This document shows, piece after piece, positions 19,160 to 25,956 of a stretch of DNA of 33,016 nt; positions within the stretch are counted from its first letter, which is position 1; each line of letters starts with the position of its first letter. Origin of the DNA: Cyanobacteria bacterium SW_9_44_58 (GTDB lineage: Bacteria > Cyanobacteriota > Cyanobacteriia > Cyanobacteriales > Rubidibacteraceae). The notes under the pieces were generated by a model that was not told the origin of the DNA, made no database searches, and saw only the letters and a program-made list of their open reading frames with translations. A program made the position numbers and the translations under genes. The stretch covers positions 1-33,016 of the forward strand of contig PXPI01000046.1 of NCBI GenBank assembly GCA_003021905.1, in the 5' to 3' direction.

Positions 19160-19837
19160 ATGACTGCAAGCAATCGCTCAATGAATTCATCATTTTCTGC
19201 TTCCTGGTCAGCAACAGACCTTTCTGCAATGGCCAAAGCGAATCTTGCTCCTGCTGAACTGTCTAATTATGAATTAATTCTCCGTTGTCAGCAAGGAATT
19301 AAACCCGATCGCGCTGCTTTTTCAGAACTGTTGCGCCGTCATCAATCCCATGTAGAAAAAATGCTCTATCATTTAGCGCCGGATTGGTCCGATCGCGCTG
19401 ATTTAGTGCAAGAAGTATGGATTCGCGTCTATCGGAATATTCAACGATTGAAAGATCCCGGCAAATTTCGAGGGTGGTTAAGCCGCATTGCGACAAACTT
19501 ATTTTATGATGAATTGCGCAAAAGAAAACACGTTAAAAATCCCATTTCTCTCGATGCCCCTCGTCAATTTGAAGATGGAGAATTAACTTGGGAAATTGCA
19601 ACGGCATTGCCCAGCCCTGACCAAGATTTAAGCAGTCAAGAATTTTATGACCAATTAAATCAGGCCATTGCCGACTTGCCGGAATCCTTTCGTACTACCA
19701 TTATTTTGCGGGAAATTGAAGGATTTTCCTACGAAGAAATTGCAGAAATGACAGGGGTCTCATTGGGAACGGTCAAATCAAGAATTGCCAGAGCCAGAGC
19801 CAGATTGCAAAGCGTCTTGCATTCCTATCTAAGTTAG
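19160..19837 (+). CDS. sigG: ECF RNA polymerase sigma factor, SigG type
   Basis: An extracytoplasmic-function (group 4, formerly cyanobacterial group 3) sigma factor of 225 residues. Region 2 is visible as FSELLRRHQSHVEKMLYHL, DLVQEVWIRVYRNIQRL and GWLSRIATNLFYDELRKRK. Region 4 is LPESFRTTIILREIEGFSYEEIAEM followed by the recognition helix VSLGTVKSRIARARARL. The extended N-terminus of about 30 residues before region 2 is Ser/Ala-rich. The next gene encodes a short protein with an anti-sigma-like layout, matching the sigG/anti-sigma pairing of other cyanobacteria. The 250-bp upstream gap contains the IS630 scar at its far end. Confidence 0.93.
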   Translation: MTASNRSMNSSFSASWSATDLSAMAKANLAPAELSNYELILRCQQGIKPDRAAFSELLRRHQSHVEKMLYHLAPDWSDRADLVQEVWIRVYRNIQRLKDPGKFRGWLSRIATNLFYDELRKRKHVKNPISLDAPRQFEDGELTWEIATALPSPDQDLSSQEFYDQLNQAIADLPESFRTTIILREIEGFSYEEIAEMTGVSLGTVKSRIARARARLQSVLHSYLS

Positions 19838-20019
19838 ACTAAAAAAAGGCGACAGCTAACTTTGACCCGGATTACTTCTCACGCCTTTCTGCTTCTTTTT
19901 CCATCTTATCCCCCTGTGGGAGTCTGAAAGCGTTTATTTCGGAATAGCTGACAGCAGATAAGTGGGAGGTGCAATCAGCAACGGAACAATTCCATTACAC
20001 GTCAATAGCGAGGAAAAAG

Positions 20020-20493
20020 ATGAACAGCCAACAACGCTTTGAGTTGTTAAGTGCTTACCTGGATCGAGAACTTCCCCCAGATCAACGCCAGCAAGTGGAA
20101 CAATGGTTAAGCCGCGATCCTCAAGCCCAACAAACTTATCAAAATCTATTAAAGCTCCGTTACCAGCTTCGGGAAAGTACAGTGCCCTCCTCGCATTCTT
20201 CTCAAGAACAACTGATGGAAACGGTTGTTGCTAAAGCCAATCGTCAAACTTGGAAACAGGCTTTCTTGTGGGGCGGCGGAACTGCCGCTGCGGTGTTTAT
20301 CGCGCTAATTTCAGGGAGCTTGTTTTCTAATTATTCCCCAATTCCTCGGTTGGCAAATTCGGGGAATTCCAATCGCGCTTCCGAGTCATTAATGATTGCC
20401 CTAAATCAACCAGTGGTAGAAATGCCGAAAGCTCCCAAATATCGGTATTCCCCAAGGCAAAAAGCGGTTTCCTCTCCCAAATCTTCCCCTTAA
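20020..20493 (+). CDS. Probable membrane anti-sigma factor for SigG
   Basis: 157 residues. The N-terminal part, RFELLSAYLDRELPPDQRQQVEQWLSRDP, is the anti-sigma-domain helix pair typical of RseA/zinc-finger-type anti-sigma factors. The HX3CX2C zinc ligands are absent. A single membrane segment (WGGGTAAAVFIALISGSLF, about residues 83-103) is followed by a short, mostly polar outer tail. The start at 20020 follows GAGGAAAAAG; the frame also opens at 19969 with no such site. It is 182 bp after sigG on the same strand, which suggests control of SigG at the membrane. Its stop overlaps that of the convergent GGCT gene in the palindrome TTAA. Confidence 0.78.
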   Translation: MNSQQRFELLSAYLDRELPPDQRQQVEQWLSRDPQAQQTYQNLLKLRYQLRESTVPSSHSSQEQLMETVVAKANRQTWKQAFLWGGGTAAAVFIALISGSLFSNYSPIPRLANSGNSNRASESLMIALNQPVVEMPKAPKYRYSPRQKAVSSPKSSP

Positions 20494-20894
20494 TGCCCTC
20501 GCCAACAGCCTGACGGTAAAAAGACGCCTCCCAACTGTTGGACGCGCCAGAACGCCATCCGATAGCCCCAAGCTTTTCCCAGGGATTCTCCCGAGGGGGC
20601 ATACAGCGTTAACCATTCTCTTTGATAAACATTCTCCTCTGCTTCTCGCGTGGGATCATAGTCTTCCAACTCATCAATATCAGCTAATAATTGTTCATCG
20701 GAAAAGGTAAGCAAAACGCCGCTTACTTCCGTATCCCCGGTTGTCATGGCGGGATACCCCACCGGCAGGGCATAAAGATGGCCAAACGTATAAGCCGGCG
20801 TTACTTTGCTGACTTTCCCGCCGCAATAGCGTTCAAAGTTAGCTTCTCCGGGTTTGAGCGTTCCGTAAACAAAAACTCTCACCGATCGCCTCAC
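20490..20894 (-). CDS. Gamma-glutamylcyclotransferase (GGCT/AIG2-like) fold protein
   Basis: A 134-residue cytosolic protein opening with VFVYGTLKPGEANFERY, the signature of the GGCT-like superfamily. An acidic residue in the IDELEDYDP stretch is the likely catalytic glutamate. Family members act on gamma-glutamyl amines, glutathione or related compounds; the substrate here is not determinable. The start is a GTG at 20894 that overlaps the stop of the upstream phosphoribulokinase-like gene as GTGA, so the two are probably translationally coupled. The 3' end overlaps the anti-sigma gene by 4 bp. Confidence 0.85.
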   Translation of the reverse strand: MRRSVRVFVYGTLKPGEANFERYCGGKVSKVTPAYTFGHLYALPVGYPAMTTGDTEVSGVLLTFSDEQLLADIDELEDYDPTREAEENVYQREWLTLYAPSGESLGKAWGYRMAFWRVQQLGGVFLPSGCWRGH

Positions 20895-21832
20895 TTAACC
20901 TGATAATTATAGGATGCTTTTAGCATATGATACGTGACAAGGAGTTGTGTCAGCGCCAGGGGATAACTTTGGAGGTTTTCTCCGGTGGTGCCAACGACTT
21001 TGCCGATTTGCACATCGCTATCAATGCGACAGAAATTGGAAAGATAGGGAACTTCAGAACAGAGAACTTTTTCCATATCAATCACTTGTTCTTTGGTAGC
21101 ATTGCCGTCAATTTCCAACACATCAACAGGTTTGCCCATATCGCGGTCTAATTCCAAGCGAACTGCCCCTTGTTCCGACTTTGATTCAAATAAACGGAGC
21201 AAATCCGGGTGAGGAATCGTCGGTCTTAAAACCAAACGAACATTGAGATTGCCGTTGCTTTCTTCGGAATGTTCTTTTGGCGGATAGAAACTAACGACCA
21301 CATCCGCCCATTCACGTTGGGGGCGAATGAAGGCTTCCGAATCCGGTTCCCGCCTTCTTAAGGCTTCTAAAACCTCTTGTTCGCTATAACTGCGTTTACG
21401 GGTATCCCGTTTCACTTTCCAAGTTTCCCGCAAGGATTCGGGCGGCGCCAGATAGACTTTCACATCAAAGGCATCGCGACAGGCTTGCGTATAGTAGCCT
21501 AATAAGCCTTCGAGAATCACAAATTTTTTCGGTTCAATGTACTCTGGCGGATCAAATTTGCCGGTATCGTGATTATAAATGGGTTTGAGAATGGGTTGTC
21601 CCCCGCGCAGCAAGGAAATATGCTGTTGCATGATATCCAAATAATTACAGTCGGGATGAAGGGCGCTTAACCCGACTTCCTTGCGTTGGGCGCGATCGTA
21701 GCGGTGATAATCATCAGTGCAAATGACAGTAACATTTTCTTCCCCTAAAATTTGGGCAATTCCTTTTGTTAAGGTGGTTTTCCCAGCGGCACTATCACCA
21801 ACAATCCCGAGAATAATTCGACGTTCAGCCAT
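20891..21832 (-). CDS. Phosphoribulokinase-family kinase, non-canonical paralogue
   Basis: A P-loop kinase of 313 residues in the phosphoribulokinase/uridine kinase superfamily. The Walker A motif is GIVGDSAAGKTTL (Lys18). The catalytic and substrate region VICTDDYHRYDRAQRKEVG and the later REPDSEAFIRPQREWADVV both match canonical PRK closely. It differs from the Calvin-cycle enzyme of cyanobacteria. The P-loop cysteine (GDSGCGKS in canonical PRK) is Ala16 here, although Cys38 remains at the partner position. The C-terminal regulatory cysteine pair is missing, and the C-terminal third is different in sequence. It may phosphorylate ribulose 5-phosphate or another sugar phosphate or nucleoside without thioredoxin/CP12 control. 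It overlaps the downstream GGCT-fold gene by 4 bp. Confidence 0.85.
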   Translation of the reverse strand: MAERRIILGIVGDSAAGKTTLTKGIAQILGEENVTVICTDDYHRYDRAQRKEVGLSALHPDCNYLDIMQQHISLLRGGQPILKPIYNHDTGKFDPPEYIEPKKFVILEGLLGYYTQACRDAFDVKVYLAPPESLRETWKVKRDTRKRSYSEQEVLEALRRREPDSEAFIRPQREWADVVVSFYPPKEHSEESNGNLNVRLVLRPTIPHPDLLRLFESKSEQGAVRLELDRDMGKPVDVLEIDGNATKEQVIDMEKVLCSEVPYLSNFCRIDSDVQIGKVVGTTGENLQSYPLALTQLLVTYHMLKASYNYQVK

Positions 21833-21971: not shown

Positions 21972-22961
21972 TTATTGCTGGCTAATTGCCTCATCAAGAA
22001 GCATTAACCCTTCTTCTAACCCTTGAATTTGGGAGAGATTATCCCGCAATTGGGCGGCACCGGGAAATCCTTTCGCATACCATGCCAGATGTTTGCGCGA
22101 TTGATAAATGCCGCGATCGCCGCGATATTCCCATAATCCCTGTAAATGTTGTTTGGCACAAGTTAACCGTTCCCCAGGTGTGGGTTGCGGACGTTTTTCG
22201 CCGGTTTTCAAAAAATGATCAATCTCGCCCGCTAAAAAGGGATAGCCTAAAGTTCCCCGGGAACACATGACACCATCGGCGTTGGTTTCTTCTAAACACT
22301 GAACTGCATCCTCAACGGAAAAAATATCGCCATTGGCAATGACGGGAATCGATAAAATCTGTTTAACCTGTTTAATCCAATGCCATTGGGCGTTTCCCTG
22401 ATAGCCTTGCGATCGCGTGCGGCCATGCAGCGTTAGCATTTGTGCCCCAGCATTTTCTAGCCGTTGGGCAAACTCCAGGATATTGATGTCAGTTTCATCC
22501 CAACCGATGCGGGTTTTAACCGAAACCGGCACTTCCACCGCCTCAACCACACTTGCCACAATCGCTTCGGCTACCTCTGGTTGACGCAGTAGAGAGGAAC
22601 CGCCTCCTTTTTTAGTAATTTTATTGACGGGACATCCCATATTGATATCGATGGTTTGCGCCCCTTCGGCAACCGCTTTTTGCGCTGCTTCTCCCATAAA
22701 ATCGGGACGAGAGTCAAATAATTGAATACTAATTGGACTTTCATCGGGGGCAATATTCATCACTTGGGGCAACTCTCGCAGATGATGGATTTCTTTCGCT
22801 TTCACCATCTCCGTATAAAGCATGGAGTCAGGGGCATAACGTCGCACTAAACGACGAAATACCATATCGGTTACCCCAGATAACGGCGACTGTAAAACAC
22901 GGCTGTTCACTTTCACTGAACCAATTTTAAGCGGTGTTGTTTGTTGCAGGGTTGCTATCAT
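21972..22961 (-). CDS. dusB: tRNA-dihydrouridine synthase
   Basis: FMN-dependent reduction of uridines to dihydrouridine in tRNA. The 329-residue protein shows the TIM-barrel start LQSPLSGVTDMVFRRLVRRY, the catalytic cysteine in DINMGCPVNKITKKGGGSSLL, the VSVKTRIGWD strand, the LHGRTRSQGY flavin/tRNA motif and IPVIANGDIFS. The layout fits the DusB-type subfamily, but DusA is not fully excluded. Its ATG directly abuts the TAA of glcD with no spacer, so it depends on the glcD transcript and perhaps on re-initiation. Confidence 0.92.
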   Translation of the reverse strand: MIATLQQTTPLKIGSVKVNSRVLQSPLSGVTDMVFRRLVRRYAPDSMLYTEMVKAKEIHHLRELPQVMNIAPDESPISIQLFDSRPDFMGEAAQKAVAEGAQTIDINMGCPVNKITKKGGGSSLLRQPEVAEAIVASVVEAVEVPVSVKTRIGWDETDINILEFAQRLENAGAQMLTLHGRTRSQGYQGNAQWHWIKQVKQILSIPVIANGDIFSVEDAVQCLEETNADGVMCSRGTLGYPFLAGEIDHFLKTGEKRPQPTPGERLTCAKQHLQGLWEYRGDRGIYQSRKHLAWYAKGFPGAAQLRDNLSQIQGLEEGLMLLDEAISQQ

Positions 22962-24449
22962 TTAATACAACTGTGCCCCTTGAAATTCAGCCAATTTGTT
23001 TGCATTGGCGGCTTCCCCGCAAGTTTTCGGGGTGGGAAAGAGTTTTGTCGGATTCGCCAATCCTTTGGGATTAAAGGCCCCGCGAACATATTGCATGGTT
23101 TCGAGATCCACCTCGCTAAACATATCGCTCATGTAACAGTTTTTATCAGCGCCAATGCCATGTTCCCCGGAAATACTCCCGCCTGCTTCGATACACCGTT
23201 TCAGAATTTTGCCACCAATTTCTTCGACAATTTCTAAAGACCCTTCCACCGATTCATCATATAAAATTAAGGGGTGTAAATTGCCGTCTCCGGCATGGAA
23301 AACATTGGCAATGCGATAGCCATACTCTTCGCTTAGGGCTTCAATATCGCGTAAGACGGCGGCAAGTTGCGTCCGGGGAATTACTCCATCTTGCACAAAA
23401 TAATCCGGGCTTAAATGCCCAGCGGCGGCAAAGGCTGCTTTTCGTCCTTTCCATAGTTTTGCCCGTTTTTCCGCATCCCAGGCAATGGTGGTGTCTCGCG
23501 CCCCATTTTCTCGACAACGGTTGGCGGTGCGTTTAATATTGTGGGTAACTTCCACTTCCGAGCCATCCAATTCTACTAATAAAATGGCACCGGCATCGCG
23601 AGGATAACATCCTGCCCCCACCACATCTTCGACAGCATTGGTGGTAAGATTATCCATCATTTCCATCCCGGCAGGAATGATACCATCGCCAATAATTGCT
23701 GCTACAGCATTGGCTGCTTCTTCGACGGTTTCAAAGTCTGCGAGTAAAACAGCAACGGATTCAGGGGTTTTCAAGACGCGGAGAGTAATTTCCGTGGCAA
23801 TCCCTAAGGTTCCCTCAGATCCCACAAACAACCCAGTGAGATCATAACCGGGCATTTCCGGCAAGGTTCCCCCAATGTCCATAATGGAACCATCGGGGGT
23901 AACAATTTTCAGTCCCAACACATGATTCGTGGTCACGCCATATTTTAGACAATGGACACCGCCCGAGTTTTCGGCAACATTGCCCCCAATGGAACAAATA
24001 ATTTGACTGGAAGGATCTGGGGCATAGTAAAAGCCTTTTCCACTCACTGCTTGCGTTACCCAGTTATTAATGACCCCTGGCTGTACCACGACCCGTTGAT
24101 TGTCGATGTCGGTTTCTAAAATTTGATTCATGCGGGCCGTAACAATTAACACCCCATTTTCGATGGGCAATGCCCCTCCAGATAATCCGGTTCCAGCGCC
24201 TCTTGCTACCCAAGGCAAGTTATACTCATCGCAAAGTTTTACCACACCTGCTACTTGTTCTGTAGTACAGGGAAGAACCACCACCGGCGGACGTTGGCGA
24301 TAACTGGCTAATCCGTCACATTCATAGGTGAGGAGTTCGTCTTTGCGTTGAACAACGCCATCTTTTCCCACAACTTTTTCCAAGGCTTTGATGATGGGTT
24401 GCCACTGCTTGTCTGTGGATTGTTGATTGAAAAGATTTTTCAAAAACAT
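22962..24449 (-). CDS. glcD: Glycolate oxidase/dehydrogenase subunit GlcD (FAD-linked oxidase)
   Basis: Oxidises glycolate to glyoxylate, the photorespiratory salvage step after phosphoglycolate phosphatase. The 495-residue protein has the FAD-binding-4 (VAO-type) domain with VARGAGTGLSGGALPIENGV and CSIGGNVAENSGGVHCLKYG. The C-terminal FAD-oxidase domain contains VFHAGDGNLHPLILYD and GSISGEHGIGADK, which supply substrate and metal ligands. D-lactate dehydrogenases share this fold, and some cyanobacterial members oxidise both substrates. Glycolate is the likelier main role in a phototroph. It is in a run of closely spaced minus-strand genes, 30 bp after the barrel-protein gene and abutting the dus gene. 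Confidence 0.92.
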   Translation of the reverse strand: MFLKNLFNQQSTDKQWQPIIKALEKVVGKDGVVQRKDELLTYECDGLASYRQRPPVVVLPCTTEQVAGVVKLCDEYNLPWVARGAGTGLSGGALPIENGVLIVTARMNQILETDIDNQRVVVQPGVINNWVTQAVSGKGFYYAPDPSSQIICSIGGNVAENSGGVHCLKYGVTTNHVLGLKIVTPDGSIMDIGGTLPEMPGYDLTGLFVGSEGTLGIATEITLRVLKTPESVAVLLADFETVEEAANAVAAIIGDGIIPAGMEMMDNLTTNAVEDVVGAGCYPRDAGAILLVELDGSEVEVTHNIKRTANRCRENGARDTTIAWDAEKRAKLWKGRKAAFAAAGHLSPDYFVQDGVIPRTQLAAVLRDIEALSEEYGYRIANVFHAGDGNLHPLILYDESVEGSLEIVEEIGGKILKRCIEAGGSISGEHGIGADKNCYMSDMFSEVDLETMQYVRGAFNPKGLANPTKLFPTPKTCGEAANANKLAEFQGAQLY

Positions 24450-25011: not shown

Positions 25012-25956
25012 TTATGCTGATTTTAGCGTTTTTTGATCTAAAAGATGAGAGACCAGCCAAGGATAATATCGGGGATAGACGGGAAGACGAGGTTGGAGTT
25101 CCCAGCCTCCTTGCTTTAAGATTTTTTCTAAGGAATCAGGATGAAGATGGGGATAATCGGGATTGACTTCATCAATCACACCAATTCCTCCGAAATCGGT
25201 TGTCCCTGCTTCTAAACAAGCCAGTAGAAATTGCGAGTCCTCAATCAGATTGGGTGGAATTTGAATCCCAATTTCTGAGGGTAAAATCTCCCGCGCCTTT
25301 CTAATTAATTTGGGAAATTCTTCTAGATTAAAGCCATCTTTTGTCCAGCTTTGTTGGCTTCCGATACGATGGGGTTGTAAAATAACTTCTTGAATCTGTC
25401 CCCAGCTTTGATGTTGTTGCGCGATCGCGCTTAAACTGTCCCGCCAATCCGCTTCCGTCTCCCCAATTCCTAACAAGATCCCTGTGGTAAAGGGAATTTT
25501 TAATTCTCCTGCCCAAGCTAACTGTTGCAACCGCATCTCCGGTTCTTTACTGGGGGCATTTTTATGCACAGTTTCTAATAATTTGGGAGTCAGTTGTTCC
25601 AACATTAACCCCATCGAAACATTCACTTGTTTGAGTTGTTTCATCTCCGAATAAAAAAGAGGCCCGGCATTGGTGTGGGGAAAAAAGCCCAAATCCAAGG
25701 CTAACTCACATAACTTATAGATATGTTGAAACCAAGCCTGACGGCGAGGGGAATGGGGATGAACTTCTCCTGAAAGAATTAAAATTTCCCAAACGCCTTT
25801 TCCTTGAAGCGACACTAACCGTTGTTTGGCTTCTTCTAAGGTTAACCAACTGTCTTTTCCTGGATCTCTGCGAAAATTGCAGTAGGAACAGTGATTAAAA
25901 CATTCGTAGGTGGGAACTAGGGTATAAGCAGGACTATAGGTAATCGTAGAAGACAT
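25012..25956 (-). CDS. cofG: 7,8-didemethyl-8-hydroxy-5-deazariboflavin synthase subunit CofG
   Basis: A radical SAM enzyme that, with CofH, makes the deazaflavin chromophore FO (8-HDF) from a tyrosine-derived intermediate. The 314-residue protein has the CX3CX2C cluster motif at Cys19, Cys23 and Cys26 (ECFNHCSYCNF). Family features include LSGEVHPHSPRR, ILLGIGETEADWRDSL, EVILQPHRIG and the late TTDFGGIGVIDEVNPD. In cyanobacteria FO mainly serves as antenna in photolyases. No cofH or photolyase gene is in the window, which fits the unlinked cofG and cofH genes I recall in this phylum. It is 26 bp downstream of the oxidoreductase gene. Confidence 0.93.
   Translation of the reverse strand: MSSTITYSPAYTLVPTYECFNHCSYCNFRRDPGKDSWLTLEEAKQRLVSLQGKGVWEILILSGEVHPHSPRRQAWFQHIYKLCELALDLGFFPHTNAGPLFYSEMKQLKQVNVSMGLMLEQLTPKLLETVHKNAPSKEPEMRLQQLAWAGELKIPFTTGILLGIGETEADWRDSLSAIAQQHQSWGQIQEVILQPHRIGSQQSWTKDGFNLEEFPKLIRKAREILPSEIGIQIPPNLIEDSQFLLACLEAGTTDFGGIGVIDEVNPDYPHLHPDSLEKILKQGGWELQPRLPVYPRYYPWLVSHLLDQKTLKSA

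Follow-up and report, generated by a model that had tools for sequence, protein, structure and literature searches.

A second phosphoribulokinase of the cyanobacterial type: a probable ribulose-5-phosphate kinase with four invariant cysteines of its own

Introduction

Phosphoribulokinase (PRK) is usually described as a single enzyme under tight redox switching, through which carbon is committed to Rubisco. The plant-type enzyme has been described as carrying two regulatory cysteine pairs (PMC9978339), and the oxidized C-terminal pair as supporting the binding of PRK into the complex with CP12 (PMC9623430). For MhPRK, the residues reported to bind ribulose 5-phosphate (Ru5P) and ATP include His55, Arg59, Arg62, Tyr98, His100, Lys151, and Arg154 (Kono et al., 2017, PMC5241800). 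The same paper gives such residues for both archaeal and bacterial PRK (MhPRK/RsPRK). A second kind of PRK is already recognized, by structures: 9QKN from Gloeocapsa PCC 73106, and 9QKO and 9QKP from Chroococcidiopsis / Hyella disjuncta PCC 6712. All three entries were released on 2026-04-08 under the title “Structure of the cyanobacteria specific PRK,” and a literature search, whose coverage excluded preprints, found no paper on a second PRK. Here we examine a kinase gene of this type on a 33,016-nucleotide contig of Cyanobacteria bacterium SW_9_44_58 (PXPI01000046.1, assembly GCA_003021905.1; the whole contig is hereafter “the window”), together with a small gene whose start overlaps the kinase stop codon (Table 1).

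The locus had been singled out from its sequence as a redox-insensitive PRK paralogue coupled to a protein of the GGCT fold, with the pair proposed as a metabolite-repair or salvage module. Our analyses suggest a different emphasis. As judged from its residues and relatives, the kinase is probably a true ribulose-5-phosphate kinase, the second of its cell and from a lineage separate from the canonical plant-type PRK found there; the proposed module fared poorly.

Table 1. Positions in the window of the kinase gene, its overlapping neighbor, and the codons discussed in the text.
Feature	Position	Strand	Basis
Second phosphoribulokinase (“cyanobacteria specific PRK” type), 313 residues	20891..21832	(-)	Open reading frame; PF00485, NF005655; 9qko/9qkn sequence matches; model fold matches
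GGACT/AIG2-like gene, 134 residues, GTG start overlapping kinase stop	20490..20894	(-)	Open reading frame, PF06094, model
Four-nucleotide GTGA overlap: kinase TGA 20893-20891, neighbor GTG 20894-20892	20891..20894	(-)	
P-loop GDSAAGKTT (residues 12-20), Ala16 in place of canonical regulatory Cys	21773..21799	(-)	Alignment; 117/117 distinct paralogues
C38 and T39 codons, preceding DDYH motif; C38 is the aligned counterpart of canonical Cys41	21716..21721	(-)	Alignments
C62 codon (HPDCNYLD); Cys in every clade sequence examined, Ala in canonical PRK	21647..21649	(-)	
Codons C258 to C268 (C-x9-C), invariant in cyanobacterial members; absent in canonical PRK and two non-photosynthetic relatives	21029..21061	(-)	

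Results and Discussion

Family Assignment and Active-Site Residues

The kinase exceeded the PRK cut-offs of PF00485 (134 bits, cut-off 22) and of NCBIfam NF005655, phosphoribulokinase (455 bits, cut-off 236), and fell below those of the two NCBIfam uridine kinase models (udk equivalogs) PRK05480 (98.9 of 180 bits) and TIGR00235 (90.1 of 220.3 bits). Its best sequence matches in the PDB, by phmmer, were 9qko/9qkp (505 bits) and 9qkn (497 bits), with the best canonical PRK entry, 6gve, at 199 bits. A predicted model of the kinase (mean predicted local distance difference test score, pLDDT, of 79.5, with low confidence at residues 261-290) gave the same result by Foldseek, where the top five matches were all chains of 9qko, 9qkp, and 9qkn, at template modeling (TM) scores of 0.85-0.91. 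These structures come from other species but belong to the same clade, being 69-72% identical to the window kinase over nearly its full length in the fold alignment and sharing its P-loop and four cysteines in the printed alignments. The window kinase is a further member of that type. Comparison with same-genus genomes pointed to purifying selection on the gene, with nonsynonymous divergence (dN) of 0.055-0.067 and synonymous divergence (dS) above 1.1, near saturation, in five of five pairs.

Other members of the superfamily are more distant. The archaeal PRK of Methanospirillum (5B3F) agrees with the window kinase in its Ru5P residues, by motif, and in fold (TM 0.76), but the two are only 27-28% identical in the fold alignment. 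Uridine kinases (UCK) share the PRK/UK superfamily core, whereas E. coli Udk, in a distant alignment, has no equivalents of the window kinase residues H43, R47, R50, H88, and K139.

We assessed the active site in an alignment of paralogues comprising 118 rows, in which the window protein appears twice, leaving 117 distinct sequences; one 97-residue fragment had been dropped beforehand. The MhPRK binding residues reported by Kono et al. (2017; PMC5241800) correspond to H43, R47, R50, Y86, H88, K139, and R142 of the window kinase, by motif spacing rather than structure superposition. All seven, as well as D41, E108, D143, and the P-loop GK, were identical in 117/117 distinct paralogues. The PRK paralogy and the retention of PRK active-site motifs, both part of the original prediction, are well supported by these results. 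With such a site the enzyme would be expected to convert Ru5P and ATP to ribulose 1,5-bisphosphate (RuBP).

Relatives Beside Rubisco Genes

Relatives from outside the cyanobacteria, searched for among plasmid records, provided the strongest clues from gene context. A separate search, for named kinase loci, covered the best 80 of 565 relatives, a cut that weaker relatives in other phyla would not have passed. A protein on a plasmid of Mycobacterium intracellulare subsp. chimaera was 44% identical to the window kinase over 97% of its length. Its gene lies directly after rpe and tkt; 6 kb separate it from rbcL, rbcS, and cbbX, an interval that includes an aldolase gene. The cluster forms one 10-kb stretch in which rbcL, rbcS, and cbbX are on the opposite strand, and hydrogenase-maturation genes adjoin it. 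A second relative, on a plasmid of Allomeiothermus silvanus, was found with the Mycobacterium protein as query. There the gene is part of a tight same-strand run, glpX-rbcL-rbcS-cbbX-prk-rpe-fba, and its product matched 9qko (256 bits) better than any canonical PRK in the PDB (173 bits).

We placed these proteins in a tree with 19 of the 117 paralogues, 15 of 30 canonical loci, and three PRK-like fusion proteins. Both non-cyanobacterial relatives grouped with the cyanobacterial paralogues (support 99/97), with the canonical PRKs on a separate branch. E. coli Udk and a bacterial-type PRK of Bradyrhizobium both took branches of length 10 in a larger tree with more paralogues, and the tree used here omits them. 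Although the structures are labeled “cyanobacteria specific,” two clade members thus reside on Mycobacterium and Allomeiothermus plasmids, and the clade is probably not strictly cyanobacterial. Because these two closest non-cyanobacterial relatives found both sit in Rubisco gene clusters, a Calvin-cycle role for the clade is supported: in both places with informative context, the clade member is the annotated PRK, and its job looks like that of a Calvin-cycle PRK. The presence of the clade in Rubisco gene clusters of non-photosynthetic organisms was a useful surprise of this analysis.

Co-existence With Canonical Phosphoribulokinase

The cyanobacterial genome that includes the window contig is 2.94 Mb in size, and the kinase is not its only PRK; being the only one is what the original prediction had named as counting against it. 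An ordinary canonical PRK of 333 residues (L001) is encoded on another contig and is about 41% identical to the paralogue over 218 residues. The same genome encodes one Rubisco large subunit and a CP12-family protein (111.5 bits). Weaker CP12-domain matches were also seen at G000:C96:30392-30532 and G000:C51:39719-39915, one of them in a 188-residue frame.

This co-existence extends across the phylum. The paralogue was found at full length (at least 554 bits) in at least 77 of 386 sampled genomes, own genome counted, and in pieces in one more (G006); canonical PRK was found in at least 127 of the 386 (131 with a match, minus four weak ones outside the class). The sample includes lineages without plant-type PRK, and both counts are lower bounds, as at most five first-look candidates were scored per genome under strict E limits. 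Since canonical PRK accompanied the full-length paralogue in 77/77 genomes, the paralogue is not a replacement for it. Among genomes with canonical PRK, the paralogue was all-or-none in two large families, present in 42/42 of family f33 and 0/16 of family f8. Among relatives, 36 of 60 genomes (own genome counted) held it at full length.

Matches were also sought in mobile elements. Of the plasmid records, 76 matched the kinase and none did so at 60% identity or more, so that no close copy of the cyanobacterial type was found there; five phage records matched, each over the kinase core only, covering 52-57% of the query at less than 60% identity. One contig titled as a Chloroflexaceae bacterium MAG (L034) carries the kinase at 78% identity; its title looks misnamed, the contig being placed in the window’s own order. 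Because NF005655 gives the paralogue and canonical PRK one name, phosphoribulokinase, annotation alone is an unsafe guide to “the PRK” of a cyanobacterial genome.

Cysteines and Possible Redox Control

The paralogue has the fold, P-loop kinase core, catalytic Asp, and Ru5P residues of canonical plant-type PRK (6HZK, 6KEV, L001), but differs from it in lacking the P-loop Cys and the C-terminal CxxxxxC stretch, in having EGLLG where the canonical enzyme has EGLHP, and in carrying a C-terminal C-x9-C of its own. By position, the canonical pairs are Cys19/Cys41 and Cys229/Cys235, and all four cysteines were present in 29/29 distinct canonical sequences from 30 loci fetched out of the 127 genomes with canonical PRK. 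The alignments bear out both cysteine losses that had been read from the window sequence: Ala16 of the paralogue stands opposite Cys19 of L001, and the stretch that holds Cys229/Cys235 is deleted. With both canonical pairs absent, the known P-loop disulfide cannot form. CP12 docking is unlikely, to judge by the alignment, because the stretch with the C-terminal pair is missing. The paralogue would accordingly be expected to lack the parts through which canonical PRK is switched off, whether by the P-loop disulfide or by capture in the GAPDH-CP12 complex.

Four other positions qualify this picture. C38, C62, C258, and C268 were invariant in 117/117 paralogues, the next commonest cysteine columns reaching only 23 of 118 rows. 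The original description of the two losses was correct, but it made no mention that C38 is kept or that C62, C258, and C268 are invariant. Similarly, its view that the kinase escapes thioredoxin/CP12 control holds as far as the canonical pairs are concerned, while general redox insensitivity appears doubtful given the four invariant cysteines. In the two non-photosynthetic relatives, the outside sequences compared, C62 occurred in both and C38 in one, with C258 and C268 in neither. Invariant cysteines confined to photosynthetic members would fit a thiol switch and a structural disulfide alike.

Two readings of these cysteines deserve consideration, and the catalytic assignment is compatible with either. 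One is that the enzyme is a fully redox-blind PRK without any thiol control. This draws on the loss of both canonical pairs and on the occurrence of C62 and C38 outside the photosynthetic members, which may point to a structural role for some of the four. The invariance of all four across the paralogues, and the restriction of C258 and C268 to photosynthetic members among those examined, argue against it, and we regard it as a plausible reading that nonetheless falls short of the balance of probability.

The other reading is that the paralogue may be tuned by its own invariant cysteines, with C258/C268 as the best candidates. More broadly, many cyanobacteria might possess two RuBP-making kinases with two independently tuned redox sensors. 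The canonical enzyme would be shut by its P-loop disulfide and CP12; the second, derived from the PRK lineage of non-photosynthetic Rubisco clusters, would have lost or never had the canonical switches and, in photosynthetic cells, would have acquired a thiol switch of its own at C258-x9-C268 and perhaps at C38/C62 too. We offer this full scenario tentatively, and think it rather unlikely to be right in all its parts. As a guess at physiology, a second PRK would supply RuBP while the canonical enzyme is oxidized and complexed, for instance during dark-light transitions, in fluctuating light, or under oxidative stress.

A second PRK without the canonical switches raises the question of when a cyanobacterium needs RuBP that CP12 cannot stop. 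It also raises the questions of why a second PRK is kept and whether C258/C268 switch it. If active, such a natural PRK, lacking the canonical regulatory cysteines, could be useful for carbon-fixation engineering.

Substrate Specificity and Catalytic Competence

Several observations weigh against the kinase being a second Ru5P kinase, perhaps under its own redox control. The substrate pocket is not identical to that of canonical PRK, as the canonical EGLHP is EGLLG in the paralogue. The non-cyanobacterial relatives number only two, both are plasmid-borne, and their long branches were flagged as possible long-branch joins; the order inside the paralogue clade is weakly supported (80/36). The name “cyanobacteria specific PRK” is the depositors’ label, and the 9qkn chain record says “Uridine kinase.” No Calvin-cycle gene was present among the five neighbor gene clusters that we named around the kinase in the best 80 of 565 loci. 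Finally, any pairing of C38/C62 or of C258/C268 is conjectural, the model being of low confidence at residues 261-290.

Some of these points would suit a sugar-phosphate or nucleoside kinase of other specificity, merely descended from PRK; that the kinase might act on a different sugar had also been raised from the window sequence. EGLL was present in 117/117 paralogues (followed by G in 116 and S in one), identity to the canonical enzyme is low over the 218 aligned residues, and, since every full-length copy sits in a genome with canonical PRK, the gene could be retained for a reason other than Ru5P kinase activity. Every tested Ru5P-binding residue is nevertheless invariant, and the same lineage occurs in two Rubisco gene clusters, where both the Mycobacterium and the Allomeiothermus proteins have the same L at the altered position. 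The Calvin-cycle clusters around these nearest non-cyanobacterial relatives found disfavor another sugar as substrate, and we consider a different specificity unlikely.

Dead enzymes usually lose some catalytic residues. That the paralogue is a regulatory or catalytically inactive homologue, binding for example PRK, Ru5P, or CP12, would suit an extra gene alongside an intact canonical copy, but the invariance of the P-loop GK, D41, E108, K139, R142, and D143 makes this very improbable.

The Overlapping GGACT-Like Gene

The coordinates of the neighboring gene and the overlap of its GTG start with the kinase stop proved exact (Table 1). Its product matched PF06094, GGACT/AIG2-like (75 bits), and its model (mean pLDDT 93.6) matched AIG2-like, GGACT, and YkqA structures with E values of about 1e-6 to 1e-5. 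The cyclotransferases of this type, 1VKB, 3JUB, and YkqA (2QIK), have PF06094 and the fold in common with the window protein (TM 0.65-0.71) at 21-23% identity. The label “GGCT-like” was right about a related fold, but the match is to gamma-glutamylamine cyclotransferase/AIG2 and not specifically to GGCT. The YGTL motif and Glu77 were invariant in 18/18 aligned homologues, and E77 is the putative catalytic Glu by its position in the family. The gene is under purifying selection, with dN of 0.15-0.21 across four pairs and dS close to or beyond saturation.

We sought to assess whether the kinase and this gene act jointly in metabolite repair or salvage, as had been proposed. Several features favor such a link within the family of the source organism (f1). 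Taking the first in-frame start of each gene, four loci (the window, G001, G002, and G005) have the same GTG overlap; in G008 the overlapping start is ATG, and in G004 a TTG start directly follows the kinase stop. Both genes are also under purifying selection. In G006, the GGACT-like gene stands beside a kinase in several pieces and different frames (G006:C143:14771-16098), which is either a pseudogene or an assembly error. Two further genomes of the family depart from the arrangement: in G007 the genes are apart, and G003 holds the kinase with no GGCT match in the genome at E 0.001. The kinase without a GGCT match in G003 and the GGCT gene beside a broken kinase in G006 both speak against a joint function.

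Beyond the family the link disappears, adjacency in the searched genomes being confined to f1. It was found in 0/24 relatives outside f1 that hold both genes (three of the 24 with partial GGCT matches only). Around the best kinase matches, a GGCT gene lay within 1.5 kb of the kinase at 6 of 30 loci, the window’s own included, all of them from the window’s family; flanks were shortened at L006, L009, L029, and L030, for the last two on the downstream side. The pair was adjacent in only one of the best 80 of 565 relatives, the same-genus one, with at least 1 kb downstream available at 78 of the 80 named loci. Presence of the two genes was likewise unlinked: GGCT occurred in 30/35 relatives with the kinase and 19/24 without it (Fisher p = 0.73; 59 relatives).

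The repair or salvage module was therefore not borne out, as adjacency is confined to f1 and the two genes occur independently, and we now think such a joint role highly unlikely. As a general module, the pair is ruled out by the absence of adjacency in the 24 relatives outside f1, by the single case among the best 80 of 565, and by the lack of association in gene presence. A role shared within f1 is possible. The GGACT-like gene is a family-level neighbor in a local gene pair that may share a transcript, though not necessarily a pathway.

Other Features of the Neighborhood

On the opposite strand, an extracytoplasmic function (ECF) sigma factor gene and a zf-HC2 anti-sigma-like gene occupy 19160-20493 (+), and the 3′ end of the latter overlaps that of the GGACT-like gene convergently by four bases. 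In G001 the pair is likewise followed by a convergent gene, zf-HC2 by Pfam, and similar ones were recognized by eye in G004, G005, and G008.

Upstream of the kinase, genes for DusB and a GlcD-like glycolate oxidase abut it at 21972-24449 (-), and a dusB-like reading frame was recognized by eye upstream of the kinase in other same-genus loci as well. The GlcD-like gene (22962-24449), in the strand run of the kinase, might hint at photorespiration. A gene for CofG, a subunit of FO synthase, lies at 25012-25956 (-) and scored 390 bits (cut-off 209).

Within 7 kb of the kinase at the best 80 of 565 loci, the five named neighbor clusters were RadC-like (28 loci), rhodanese/UPF0176 (20), O-methyltransferase (15), AIRC-like (13), and U32 peptidase (9). 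Each was named from one representative; a cluster of antisense reading frames (20 loci) and one of 11 loci were among those left unnamed. In its 28 of the 80 named loci (L033-L112), the RadC-like gene came directly downstream of the kinase in the same orientation, at distances ranging from overlap to 1.24 kb. We considered a function for the kinase from its neighbors and rejected it, as none follows from these five clusters.

The three fusion proteins included in the tree carry a PRK-like domain behind an N-terminal part of about 370-415 residues (L201:1915-3897, L203:3795-5894, and L204:3777-5894). They are encoded on plasmids of E. coli, Hirschia, and Azospirillum, and one of the N-terminal parts had a weak, below-cut-off match to GT87. 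All three have Pro at the position of R50 and Ser at that of E108. Their genes are accompanied each time by genes for GtrA, a GT2 glycosyltransferase, a PI-PLC/GDPD-like protein, and a HAD hydrolase, and at two of the three loci also by genes for an NTP transferase and a class II aldolase. We would guess at a surface-sugar pathway, so far unstudied, with a pentulose-type kinase.

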